Source: Opitutus sp. GAS368 (lineage in GTDB: Bacteria; Verrucomicrobiota; Verrucomicrobiia; Opitutales; Opitutaceae). From it: 32,536 nucleotides of DNA. Shown one piece after another: positions 1,714 through 6,203 of this stretch. A program made the translations under genes and the position numbers. The DNA is taken from positions 1 to 32,536 of the forward strand of contig CAMCHO010000032.1 of NCBI GenBank assembly GCA_945874455.1, written 5' to 3'. Every line of letters begins with the position of its first letter. The first letter of the stretch is position 1. Below the pieces are notes generated by a model, which ran no database searches, had not been told where the DNA came from, and was given only the letters and a program-made list of their open reading frames with translations.

Positions 1714-2205
1714 TCAGTCCAAGACGCGGAGATGTTCCACCGGCACTTTTACCAGCAGGCCCTGTCGCAGCACGTCGACGGAAAGGACGACGCCCTGCGG
1801 GTTGCTGGGGTCGTCGACGAAACCCTCGAGGCCGTAGAGCGGGCCGCCGATGATTTTCACGTGTTTTCCCTTGGTAAAAAGAGGCATGACGCTCAACTCG
1901 AAGCCGGACGCGACGATCTTCTTCACGTCGGCGAGTTGACGAAGAAATCGCGGTTCGTCGGTGACGGTGATCGCGCGTGCGAGCAGTTCCTGCTGGTAGA
2001 TGCGCGATTTCTCCTCGACCGGTACTTGGGCGAAGACGTAGCCGGGGAAGAGCGGCTTGGTGAATTTTTTCGTCTGCTGCGCGTAGTGGCGCACGCTCAC
2101 CACGAGAGCGAGGTAGTGCTCAAATTTTTCCGCCGCCATGAGGGCGGCGAATTTTTTTTCGCACCGAGGTTTGGTGTGACAGACCAGCCAGAAGTGATCA
2201 CTCAT
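1714..2205 (-). CDS. NusG/RfaH-like transcription antitermination protein (NusG paralogue)
   Basis: 163 residues. The N-terminal NGN domain starts WLVCHTKPRCEKKFAALM, the typical W.(V/L).T.PR.E..A pattern of NusG and RfaH, and contains PLFPGYVFAQV (the family's LFPGY(V/I)F motif) near residues 52-62. The C-terminal KOW-type segment starts around residue 112 with GKHVKIIGGPLYGLEGFV. NGN domains bind the RNA polymerase clamp and affect pausing and termination. It is not in the usual secE-nusG-rplK setting and lies 4 bp downstream of aroQ, so it is more likely a specialised paralogue (RfaH, UpxY or LoaP class) than housekeeping NusG. Its target operon is not evident; the nearest candidate is the secreted protein gene just downstream. 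Confidence 0.85.
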   Translation of the reverse strand: MSDHFWLVCHTKPRCEKKFAALMAAEKFEHYLALVVSVRHYAQQTKKFTKPLFPGYVFAQVPVEEKSRIYQQELLARAITVTDEPRFLRQLADVKKIVASGFELSVMPLFTKGKHVKIIGGPLYGLEGFVDDPSNPQGVVLSVDVLRQGLLVKVPVEHLRVLD

Positions 2206-2209
2206 CCGC

Positions 2210-2638
2210 TCAGTTTTTCAGGAGGAAACGAAGGGCGGCGTGATAACCCTCGAGGCCGAGCCCGGTGATGACCGCGATGCACGCCGGGGCGGTCAGCGAT
2301 GTGTGGCGAAACTCCTCGCGCTTGTAGATATTTGAGATGTGGACCTCGATGGTCGGGAGATGGGCGCCCAAGAGCGCATCGCGCAGGGCCACACTCGTGT
2401 GGGTGAAAGCGCCGCCGTTGATGACGAGACCATCGAATTTCGCGTCGGCCAATGCAGCGATTTTATCGATCAGGGCGCCCTCGTGATTCGACTGAAAAAA
2501 CTCGAGCTGCGCCGACGAGGCGAATTCAGCGCGCAGGGCGTCTGCGAGATCGGCGAGGGTCGCGCGGCCGTAGATCTCCGGCTCGCGTTTGCCGAGGCGG
2601 TCGAGGTTGGGGCCGTTGAGAATGGCGATGCGTTTCAT
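2210..2638 (-). CDS. aroQ: Type II 3-dehydroquinate dehydratase
   Basis: 142 residues from the ATG that gives [20 protein letters not shown]. The hallmark ILNGPNL..LG.REP.IYG at the N-terminus carries the asparagine of the active-site loop and, at IYG, the catalytic tyrosine. [12 protein letters not shown] (about 48-59), [19 protein letters not shown] (about 71-89) and VEVHISN-like [15 protein letters not shown] (about 96-110) hold the other conserved Asn, Glu, His and Arg residues. The enzyme dehydrates 3-dehydroquinate to 3-dehydroshikimate in the shikimate pathway, in the cytoplasm as a dodecamer. A longer start at 2659 is possible but adds seven non-conserved residues. It is followed after 4 bp by the NusG-like gene. 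Confidence 0.95.
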
Positions 2639-2717: not shown

Positions 2718-3470
2718 CTAGAACGGGTTCTCTGTGCCGATGAATTCCCACGGAAGTTTGAATTTTTTCGAGAGCTCGGCGGCGAGGGCCTTTACGCCGT
2801 GGACCTCGGTGGCGTAGTGACCGCAGAGGTAGAGGTTGAGTTTTTCCTCCTGCGCGCGGTTGAAACAGTCTTCGCGCAATTCACCGGTGATCAACGTGTC
2901 GACGCCGGACGCGAGGAGTTCCGGCACGGCGCTGTAACCGCTGCCGCTGCAAAACGCGACGGCCTTGGGCGAGGCGGAACCGTATTCGATGGCGATCACC
3001 CGCGGATAGAGAGACTCGAGTTTCCGGCGGATCGCGGCGCGGGTGAGGCGCGACTCGGCGATATTACTAATGGCTTCGCCGTCGCGGACGAGAAACGGGC
3101 GGGACGGTTTGAGACCGAGCTGTTTGGCGAGGAGCGCGTTGTTGCCGAGCTGCGGATGGCCGTCGAGCGGAAGATGATTGGAGTAGAGCGCGCAGTTGGC
3201 GTGCAGGAGCGTCGCCACCCGGGTGTAGGCCGGACCCGTGAGCGGGCGCGGCATGTCCCAATACATGCCGTGGTGCGCGATGAGAAAATCGATGCCGGCG
3301 GCCACGGCCTTTTGAAACGGGACGACTCCCGCGTCCACGGCAGCACCGATTTTTGAGACGCGGCCGTCGTTGGCGAGTTGCAGGCCGTTGAACGCGCCAG
3401 GGGCGTCTTTGTAGGCGGCGCGGCGGGTACGTTGATCGCAGTAGGTGACGAGGTCGGTGAGCGTGGGCAT
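2718..3470 (-). CDS. Nif3-like dinuclear metal-centre protein (DUF34)
   Basis: 250 residues, full length for the YbgI/Nif3 family. Metal-ligand motifs are visible: LIAHHGMYW near residues 63-71, YSNHLPLD near 96-103, and at the C-terminus [15 protein letters not shown] followed by [12 protein letters not shown], which holds the last His and Glu ligands. These proteins form a toroidal hexamer with a two-metal site. They are often labelled GTP cyclohydrolase I type 2, but the true role is unsettled. The gene starts 3 bp after the stop of the type III polyketide synthase, so it shares the same transcript, although it is a widespread housekeeping protein and need not belong to the pathway. Confidence 0.92.
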
Positions 3471-3473
3471 GGT

Positions 3474-4508
3474 TCAGAGGCCGAGGCGGCAGCTATGGGC
3501 GCTAAACCCTGCACCAAAACTCACGAGCCAAAAATCGCCGTCGGTGGCGGTGGGCGTCGTGGTTTTCAACGTCTCCGCGAGCACGAACAGCACCGACGGG
3601 CTGCTCATGTTTCCGTAGTCGCGGAGGACGCGAGTGCTGACGTCGAGAGAATGCGGCGCGAGCGCCGGGGCGAGCGCGGCCAAGACATCGCGTCCACCGG
3701 GATGCGCGACGACGCGGGCGACAGGGCGCGGGCCGCGATGGGCCCACAGGTGTTCAACGGCGCTCGCGGCGAGCGTGGGGACGGAGCGGTCGAGGAGGTT
3801 GCGGAGTTTGCCGTCGCGTTGTTCGAAGCGGAGCTTGTCGCGGTCGGCCGGGACGTGGAGCGTGTCGAAGTCGAAGGCGCGCAGACCGGTCGGTCCAGGC
3901 GTCGCGCGCCAGATCGTGGCGGCGGCACCGTCACTGAACAGGCACGCGCTGATGAGCACGCCGGGGTCGTCGTCGAGGTAAAACGCGGCCGAACAAACCT
4001 CGACGGCGATGCAGGCCACCGTGGCGGTCGGGTGGGCGGCGAGTACGTGGCTCGCCGCGCGAAGGGTGGGAATCGCTGCACCGCAGCCGAGGCCGACGAG
4101 ATCTTGCAGGATGGCGTTGGGGCGGAGGCCGAGTTGTTCGGCGACGTAGCTGGTCAAGCCGGGGCAGAGGTAGCCGGTGCAGGTGCAGATGAGGAGCGCG
4201 TCGAGTTGCGCGGGGACGAGGTGGGCGCGGGCGAGCGCAGACGTGAGGGCGGTCGCGGCCAGCTTCGGCGCAGCGGAGCGGAACGCGGCGTTGAGCTGGT
4301 CGGAGGTGAGATCGAAAACGTTTTCGATGTCGGGCACGGCAAAGTGGCGCGTGGCGATGCCGTGGTCGCCGGCCAGAATGCTGTGCACAATCAGGCGCGA
4401 ACGCTTGCTGAGGCGTTGGCGGACGGGAGAACGTTGCACGATGTCCCAGCACGCGGCTTGCGTGTACCGGGCGGGTGGAACGGCAGTGGCGAGCGCGTGA
4501 AGAAACAT
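3474..4508 (-). CDS. Type III polyketide synthase (chalcone/stilbene synthase-like)
   Basis: 344 residues with a thiolase fold. The catalytic triad is visible: Cys142 in GLGCGAAIPTLRA, His269 in VAHPGGRD and Asn300 in YGNMSSPSVLFVL. The C-terminal FGAGFSAHSCRL matches the family's FGPG...E...L end. Such enzymes extend an acyl-CoA starter with malonyl-CoA and cyclise the chain to pyrones, resorcinols, phloroglucinols or similar rings. The protein is slightly shorter than plant enzymes but complete. Its stop lies 3 bp before the Nif3-like start and its start is 1 bp after the oxidoreductase stop. With the flavoprotein and methyltransferase upstream, the arrangement parallels actinobacterial srs-type phenolic lipid operons. 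The starter and ring type cannot be read from the sequence. Confidence 0.92.
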   Translation of the reverse strand: MFLHALATAVPPARYTQAACWDIVQRSPVRQRLSKRSRLIVHSILAGDHGIATRHFAVPDIENVFDLTSDQLNAAFRSAAPKLAATALTSALARAHLVPAQLDALLICTCTGYLCPGLTSYVAEQLGLRPNAILQDLVGLGCGAAIPTLRAASHVLAAHPTATVACIAVEVCSAAFYLDDDPGVLISACLFSDGAAATIWRATPGPTGLRAFDFDTLHVPADRDKLRFEQRDGKLRNLLDRSVPTLAASAVEHLWAHRGPRPVARVVAHPGGRDVLAALAPALAPHSLDVSTRVLRDYGNMSSPSVLFVLAETLKTTTPTATDGDFWLVSFGAGFSAHSCRLGL

Positions 4509-4509
4509 T

Positions 4510-5562
4510 TTAGTGGAGGGCGGCGTAGAGTGGAGCGAGCGGGACGAGGCGAACGCGATTCAAGGCGGAGAGCACGCGTTGGCGGGGCGGAGAGAAGAGG
4601 AACGGATGAACGGCGGCGGCCGAGGCCAAGCGCAGGCGAAAACGTCGGCGCAAGGCGCGCGAGATGACTTCGCACGTGTCGCTCCACGCAGCGGCGCCCC
4701 GCGCGTACGCGAGGAGCGGAGGCAGTGCAGTCTCAGCGCTTTGGAAGGCCATCGCCATGCCGTTGCCGGTGAAAGGAGGAATCATGGCGCACGTATCGCC
4801 GAGACACATACGGCCAGGCGGCGGGGCGATGACGCGGCCGTCGAAGCTGACGGCGGCGACGGCGCAGAACGAATCCGCTGCTAGTTCGCTGGTGGCAAGG
4901 CACGCGGCGAGGCTGGTGAGGCCGGCGGCTTGCAGATAACCGAGCAGGAGGTTGGCGCCTTTCGCACAGAGGGCGCGGCGGCGGAAAAGTCCGCAGACGT
5001 TCACCGAGCCGTCTTCGACGCGGGCGAGGCCGACGTAGGCGTGGTCACCGAGGTGGAGTTCGAGGTCGCGCGTGAGCGTGACGTCGCGGGCATGGATTTT
5101 CAGGCCGAGCCACGGCGAGCGGCTGCGACGTCGGCCGGTTGTGAACACGCGGCCGGGGACGGAGCTGAAGGCGGTGTCAGTTTCGGGGAAGCGGGTGTTG
5201 GCGAGCAAAACTCCGCCAGCGGCGGTAAACGCGGTGGCGAGGCGATGGTCGAGCGCGTGACGGCTGAGGCCGAGGGCGGACGAGGGGAGTCTTTGGATAC
5301 GCGTGGGCTTGGTCGTGGCATCCGCGCCGATGAACCAAGCGACCTCGCGATGGTGCAGCGCGTCGGAAAAGTAAGGAGCGAGACCGAGTGTGGTGATGGT
5401 GGCGGCGGAGAGTCCGGTTATGAATTCCCCGCAGACACGATGGCGCGGATAGTGGCCGGCCTCAAAAATCGTCACCGTCACGCCGGCGCGGCGGAGCGCT
5501 AGGCCGAGCGAAAGTCCGGCCAGGCCGCCGCCGATGATTTCGATGGGCCGGGGGAAGGTCAT
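4510..5562 (-). CDS. FAD-dependent oxidoreductase, geranylgeranyl-reductase/PHBH-like
   Basis: 350 residues from the ATG giving MTFPRPIEIIGGGLAGLSLG; a longer frame to 5619 exists but its first 19 residues look non-coding. The dinucleotide motif GGGLAG is at residues 11-16 and is followed by IFEAGHYPRHRVCGEF, typical of the geranylgeranyl reductase and halogenase-like flavoproteins. The second FAD motif is CLGDTCAMIPPFTGNGMAMAF in the C-terminal third. The start overlaps the stop of the methyltransferase by 4 bp (ATGA), which implies translational coupling, and the polyketide synthase follows after 1 bp. A role in hydroxylating or otherwise oxidising the polyketide product is the natural inference, though a reductase acting on an acyl chain is possible. 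Confidence 0.88.
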   Translation of the reverse strand: MTFPRPIEIIGGGLAGLSLGLALRRAGVTVTIFEAGHYPRHRVCGEFITGLSAATITTLGLAPYFSDALHHREVAWFIGADATTKPTRIQRLPSSALGLSRHALDHRLATAFTAAGGVLLANTRFPETDTAFSSVPGRVFTTGRRRSRSPWLGLKIHARDVTLTRDLELHLGDHAYVGLARVEDGSVNVCGLFRRRALCAKGANLLLGYLQAAGLTSLAACLATSELAADSFCAVAAVSFDGRVIAPPPGRMCLGDTCAMIPPFTGNGMAMAFQSAETALPPLLAYARGAAAWSDTCEVISRALRRRFRLRLASAAAVHPFLFSPPRQRVLSALNRVRLVPLAPLYAALH

Positions 5563-6203
5563 GGGCGGCGGATGGCGATCAGGCGGTAGGCGCCGAGAGC
5601 GGTCGTGGAGCAGCGGCAATCCCAGTGTGCCGGATCGAGGCCAAGCGAACGAGGGAGTTCGTCGTCGAGGAAGCCGGCGGCGATGCTTACGTGCGCATCG
5701 TGGCGGGTGACGTGGTTGGCGCGCAGCAACGGGCTGAGGAGCGCGAAGAGACGTTGCGAGCGGCGGCTGCGGCTGGGCTCACTCGCGAGGATGACTCGGG
5801 TGGTGCGAGCGAGGGTGGCACCGAGCGAGGCGAGTTCCGCTTCTGACAAGTGGTGTAAAATGAGATTAGCGATCACGGCTGGGTAAGAGGCGTAGCCGGT
5901 GAAGGAGCGCAAATCTGCGGTGTGCCAGGCGCGTGCGCGCGGCCATTTTTGCGGACACGTCACGAAATCGAGTCCGTCGACCGGAATGTTTCGGGCAGAG
6001 AGACGGAGGGCCAACTCACCGGTGCCGGCGCCGAGTTCGAGGGTGTGCTCGCCCGCGCGCACGAGCGGAGGAAGGGTGCGGGCGAACCAGCGGTGGTTGC
6101 CCATGAGGCGATTGATCACCCGTAGGTCGCGGCGACTGTGCCGGGCATCGGGGTGATCGGACGGGAGCGAGTCGAGCAGCTCGGGTTGAAGCGTGCGGAG
6201 CAT
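5559..6203 (-). CDS. Class I SAM-dependent methyltransferase
   Basis: 214 residues from the ATG at 6203 (MLRTLQPELLDSLPSDHPDA). The frame stays open upstream to 6599, but that part overlaps the divergent deaminase gene and has no family-like sequence. SAM motif I is HTLELGAGTGELALRL near residues 54-69, followed by an acidic residue in VDGLDFV; ANLILHHLSEAEL is the usual motif IV/post-motif region. It starts the tightly packed methyltransferase, oxidoreductase, type III polyketide synthase, Nif3-like run. It would be expected to O- or C-methylate the ring made by the polyketide synthase. Actinobacterial and Bacillus phenolic-lipid operons use a membrane ICMT-type methyltransferase instead, so this is a different solution for the same slot. 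Confidence 0.85.
   Translation of the reverse strand: MLRTLQPELLDSLPSDHPDARHSRRDLRVINRLMGNHRWFARTLPPLVRAGEHTLELGAGTGELALRLSARNIPVDGLDFVTCPQKWPRARAWHTADLRSFTGYASYPAVIANLILHHLSEAELASLGATLARTTRVILASEPSRSRRSQRLFALLSPLLRANHVTRHDAHVSIAAGFLDDELPRSLGLDPAHWDCRCSTTALGAYRLIAIRRP

Follow-up and report, generated by a model that had tools for sequence, protein, structure and literature searches.

A conserved methyltransferase-flavoprotein-type III polyketide synthase operon of Opitutaceae with a divergent synthase and a possible phenolic-lipid product

The window, i.e., the whole stretch of 32,536 nucleotides of Opitutus sp. GAS368 that was analysed (contig CAMCHO010000032.1), carries on its minus strand the genes of a class I methyltransferase (MT), a FAD-dependent oxidoreductase (FAD) and a type III polyketide synthase (T3PKS). 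This trio is a real, conserved and functionally coherent operon, for which only a putative product can be proposed from the sequence. In our preferred reading, to which we give a probability of about 0.6, it would be a short, vertically inherited pathway in which the T3PKS product, either an alkylresorcinol or a pyrone, is tailored by methylation and ring hydroxylation. The observed basis of this pathway consists of the gene order, the intact catalytic triad, the conservation, co-inheritance and purifying selection of the genes, and the predicted folds of the enzymes. Such trios are already known in cyanobacteria and planctomycetes, and the new element appears to be a separate synthase branch: the MT-oxidoreductase-T3PKS type of phenolic-lipid operon would thus also occur in Verrucomicrobiota, where its synthase belongs to a divergent clade that is widespread in Opitutaceae and shared with Proteobacteria.

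Layout and conservation of the operon

The MT gene (5559..6203, minus strand, 214 aa) comes first, and its stop overlaps the start of the FAD gene (4510..5562, minus strand, 350 aa) by 4 bp, in the sequence ATGA (5559..5562, minus strand). A single base, at position 4509, separates the FAD gene from the T3PKS gene (3474..4508, minus strand, 344 aa). The NIF3/DUF34 gene (2718..3470, minus strand; PF01784, 165 bits), common to most Opitutaceae loci, starts 3 bases past the T3PKS stop. It is followed by aroQ, a housekeeping gene for a type II 3-dehydroquinase and a conserved downstream neighbour (2210..2638, minus strand; PF01220, 185 bits), and by a NusG-like gene (1714-2205, minus strand). NIF3 and aroQ stand next to the T3PKS gene in most close relatives, and in one locus (L195) NIF3 lies upstream of the MT gene. 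NIF3 is probably co-transcribed with the T3PKS gene, and the unit may extend beyond the trio. Upstream of the trio, a dCMP deaminase gene is divergently oriented. No sigma-70-like promoter was found in our scan, the terminator matches are unpersuasive, and a Pfam scan of the remaining window proteins revealed no further biosynthetic genes.

A T3PKS orthologue is present in 78 of 150 Opitutaceae genomes (E below 1e-100), the window genome having a single copy of this type. Fifty Opitutaceae loci were examined, the 30 closest and 20 picked among more distant ones: the MT-FAD-T3PKS order is kept in 44, five have MT and T3PKS without FAD, and the last is a lone second T3PKS copy. The same trio is found in 10 of 13 window-type synthase loci from other Verrucomicrobiota families, where the flanking genes differ. 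These results are in agreement with the initial annotation, which had described three same-direction genes with a 4-bp overlap and a 1-bp gap, had read them as one operon and had expected them to be neighbours in related genomes: reading frames, strand and coordinates are the same, the packing is confirmed and the order is conserved across relatives. It is hardly credible that the three genes are adjacent by chance and serve separate pathways. Their housekeeping flanks, and the relatives that keep one or two of them alone, would fit such an accident, but the trio recurs in the 44 Opitutaceae loci and, with different flanks, in 10 from other families, and equivalent trios exist in Proteobacteria and Planctomycetota.

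All three genes are maintained by purifying selection, as their dN/dS values against six close relatives (congeners and near relatives) lie between 0.08 and 0.29 (0.09-0.16 for the PKS, 0.08-0.25 for FAD and 0.14-0.29 for MT); NIF3 gives 0.10-0.18 against the same six. The losses are nested. Whole-genome searches reveal no FAD homologue in four genomes that keep MT-PKS (G025, G085, G107 and G059), and neither MT nor FAD in two genomes that keep the PKS (G265 and G357); no PKS with FAD and without MT was encountered among the loci examined. In two other genomes (G268 and G340), the MT-FAD pair is kept, away from the PKS. This nesting, in a small sample, suggests an order of steps in which the PKS would act first, the MT second and FAD last. 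It makes the step order testable by natural losses, and the genes are available in a cultured strain (see below). In the genome G141, whose main operon is without FAD, a second MT-FAD pair (L200, G141:C11) is followed by a shortened PKS of about 95 residues; L200 is probably a decaying duplicate.

The synthase and the related operons

The T3PKS is recognised by PF08392 (54 bits), PF00195 (42 bits) and PF02797 (38 bits), all above the cut-off of 27. Cys142, His269 and Asn300 are invariant across 14 aligned T3PKSs, so that the catalytic triad is intact, as previously noted. In an IQ-TREE phylogeny of 77 synthases, drawn without HidC, SrsA and ArsB/C, the window-type T3PKSs of Verrucomicrobiota form a clade of 25 rows (support 100/99). 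Its sister clade (99/96) holds Proteobacteria, three Verrucomicrobiota loci (L171, L172 and L175) and one Nitrospirota row, and no characterised synthase is found among the compared members of these two clades. In the next clade outward (100/99), three of the five members adjoin an MT and a U32 protein. At L059:3994-7014, L063:5619-8851, L090:176-2677 and L078:5524-8595, T3PKS genes of Verrucomicrobiota have a class I MT and a U32 protein (PF01136) as neighbours, and these U32 proteins have conserved cysteine clusters like those of UbiU/UbiV. UbiU and UbiV are O2-independent hydroxylases, and the U32 protein could possibly be, by analogy, an anaerobic substitute for the flavoprotein step.

A scan of genome contigs, ranked by a Caballeronia query, yielded at least 80 loci, mostly of Beta- and Gammaproteobacteria. 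A five-gene operon, PKS-MT-FAD-ACP-KAS (ACP and KAS by Pfam), is conserved in Proteobacteria such as Caballeronia, Polaromonas and Accumulibacter, among others (L096-L175, e.g., L105:4441-9207 and L121:4501-9173). Its T3PKS is 38-45% identical to that of the window and its MT belongs to the same family, whereas its order is PKS-MT-FAD and it has the additional ACP and ketosynthase genes, which are absent from the window. No published description of this operon was found in our literature search, which also gave nothing on geranylgeranyl-reductase operons. L171, L172 and L175 link the window and proteobacterial groups, since they combine the PKS-MT-FAD order with a window-type FAD (40-42%).

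The T3PKS could alternatively make a small aromatic compound, of the dihydroxyphenylacetate (DpgA-like) or phloroglucinol type, decorated by MT and FAD and never becoming a long-chain lipid. The position of Streptomyces DpgA at the base of the window's side of the tree (97/93) speaks for it, but DpgA is placed there by a long-branch join, no DpgB/C-like genes adjoin the T3PKS, and the ACP and KAS genes of the sister proteobacterial operon point to a fatty-acyl starter. This product is thus improbable. An identification as DpgA from NCBIfam was rejected as non-specific: the window T3PKS scores 127 bits, no higher than the other T3PKSs, every one tested scoring 116-166 bits.

Among known systems, the trio is best paralleled by the hid-type operons. 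In planctomycetes, 58 of 96 T3PKS genes close an operon in which an MT and a FAD oxidoreductase precede them, in the order of the cyanobacterial hidABC (Milke 2024, PMC10896814), and this order is identical to that of the window trio. Both operons usually have a soluble MT and an oxidoreductase of this kind (PMC10896814, PMC8086630). Even the alternative order, PKS-MT-FAD, has its counterpart on both sides, as L171, L172 and L175 in Verrucomicrobiota and as hidC-hidA-hidB in cyanobacteria (Larsen 2021, PMC8086630). The likeness of the proteins themselves is more distant. In the operon of Paludisphaera borealis (L093), whose gene order is identical to that of the window, the MT has PRK06202 as its best NCBIfam match with 232 bits, vs. 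63 bits for the window MT, both under the cut-off of 243. The Paludisphaera FAD belongs to the same oxidoreductase subfamily as the window FAD, with shared CG(E/A) and GYVGLxRVEDGS motifs (60 bits); overall, planctomycetal MT and FAD are only distantly alike those of the window. The Paludisphaera T3PKS is about 25% identical to that of the window and falls in a separate clade; the HidC/planctomycetal clade identity is about 48-55%, and HidC and the Gimesia maris sequences stand outside our comparison.

The initial annotation had likened the trio to the srs operons of Streptomyces. The logic of synthase, methyltransferase and flavoprotein stands, but srs comes second as an analogue: the hid-type is closer by gene order and enzyme types, and true srs-like sets adjoin another T3PKS clade. 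SrsB is a membrane MT of the ICMT type and SrsC a full-length FAD_binding_3 hydroxylase. Unlike srsABC, the window has no ICMT-type MT, its own being of class I, and no full-length FAD_binding_3 protein, PF01494 matching with 33 bits over 58 residues. Membership of srs was therefore rejected on both the MT class and the FAD class. The trio would work like the hid-type and srs-type phenolic-lipid pathways and is here assigned to neither.

Verrucomicrobiota nevertheless have srs-like sets, as shown by the FAD_binding_3 and ICMT-like genes that adjoin a different T3PKS clade (clade B, 25-32% identity to the window). These synthases group far off in the tree, with Deinococcus, Novosphingobium, Paludisphaera and Pks18. 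They adjoin full-length FAD_binding_3 proteins (PF01494, 125-168 bits), and several of these loci also carry membrane MTs, labelled ICMT-like from a reading of their sequences, which occur solely beside clade B synthases among the Verrucomicrobiota loci tested. At L072:7187-9241, after the T3PKS, a single reading frame joins an ICMT-like membrane MT, a part without any Pfam match, and a FAD_binding_3 hydroxylase, as a fused SrsB/SrsC-like protein.

The methyltransferase and the flavoprotein

The MT has NF004851/PRK06202 as its best NCBIfam match (63 bits, below the cut-off), together with a weak PF13649 match, and its LHH and DAxxSVxAGF motifs are invariant among the relatives that adjoin a T3PKS. 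The AlphaFold model of the protein (METHYLTRANSFERASE; pLDDT 85) has a class I MT fold, with BelI, CysG, BpumL and O-methyltransferases as the nearest solved structures. The MT is thus of class I by fold and by family, in keeping with the soluble class I enzyme proposed initially, and it may act on a ring carbon or oxygen.

The FAD protein has a FAD-binding N-terminus (Pfam), and its AlphaFold model (pLDDT 80, from an 18-sequence alignment) matches, with VIA Z of about 27-31, the halogenases ChlB4, PltA and RadH as well as indole, 3-hydroxybenzoate, p-hydroxybenzoate and kynurenine monooxygenases. Profile searches place halogenases on top and geranylgeranyl reductases (GGR) lower. The protein has the motifs PRHRVCGEF and AYVGLARVED. 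Its fold is that seen in flavin monooxygenases and halogenases, but it is without the halogenase motifs and scores below the cut-off for the reductases; an aromatic-ring hydroxylase is its most likely identity as far as the model indicates. Hierridin B requires a third oxygen on its ring, and a hydroxylase is therefore expected. Haem-copper oxidase genes are present in all 12 genomes checked, which makes O2 a plausible co-substrate.

Two other activities have to be weighed against this hydroxylation. The initial annotation had called the oxidoreductase of the geranylgeranyl-reductase type, and a GGR-like enzyme would saturate a chain or reduce an intermediate instead of hydroxylating the ring. 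TIGR02032, the geranylgeranyl reductase superfamily, is indeed the best NCBIfam match, with 49 bits in the window and 116 bits in a planctomycetal relative, and the fold matches include the archaeal GGR 3oz2. Moreover, Opitutus terrae has been described as strictly anaerobic, and an O2-dependent step would be odd there. However, the score is far under the family cut-off of 158.8, so that the label is a weak one, and the superfamily also takes in monooxygenases such as QhpG. In addition, halogenases and monooxygenases outrank GGRs in both profile and fold searches, and a trio-carrying genome (G003) has several haem-copper oxidases. We therefore consider a reductase rather unlikely.

A halogenase that would chlorinate the resorcinol ring is much less probable still. 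Flavin halogenases (CmlS, ChlB4, PltA and RadH) come first in both the sequence and the fold comparisons, and RadH and PltM act on resorcinol- or phloroglucinol-type polyketides. On the other hand, the WxWxIP halogenase motif is absent from all 11 window-type FAD proteins tested, most of which have (G/A)YxG in its place, and in the window FAD the residues that follow CGE, where CmlS has its catalytic lysine, include no lysine. The step that leads to hierridin C is not known (PMC8086630).

Proposed pathway and product

With a ring hydroxylase as the flavoprotein, the pathway could run as follows. The T3PKS would load an acyl starter from primary metabolism, bound to CoA or ACP, on Cys142, extend it with malonyl-CoA and cyclise the chain, which would give an alkylresorcinol (or a pyrone). 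The MT would then put one methyl on a ring carbon or oxygen, and FAD would hydroxylate the ring last, using O2. The end product would be a methylated alkyl-hydroxyhydroquinone or a quinone-type phenolic lipid of the membrane. When planctomycetal synthases were expressed in C. glutamicum, pentadecyl- and heptadecylresorcinols were formed, and the MT and FAD pair of G. maris brought about a single methylation, probably a C-methylation (PMC10896814). The window product may differ from these alkylresorcinols, given the low identity of the T3PKS and its other clade. The oxidoreductase was without visible effect when the G. maris steps were reconstituted (PMC10896814), which counts against this scheme.

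A more speculative idea, which we regard as doubtful, is that the trio makes a redox-active polyketide quinone/hydroquinone serving Opitutaceae as an auxiliary membrane electron carrier beside menaquinone, by analogy with the srs-like pks10 operon of M. smegmatis, for which such a carrier role has been reported (PMC5916927).

The genes are present in Congregicoccus parvus ASA1 (AP028972.1, about 3,647.7-3,650.5 kb), with the PKS at 3,649,430-3,650,452 and MT and FAD upstream. This PKS corresponds to the T3PKS region 3 of antiSMASH (3,629,430-3,670,473) with its 20-kb flanks. In the parts of the strain description available to us, region 3 is listed as a T3PKS region that is uncharacterised and resembles no known cluster, and no description of the trio or of the phylogeny of its synthase was found there (PMC10927696). 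Strain ASA1 (JCM 36569) is cultured and aerobic, with MK-7 and with anteiso-C15:0 as a major fatty acid.
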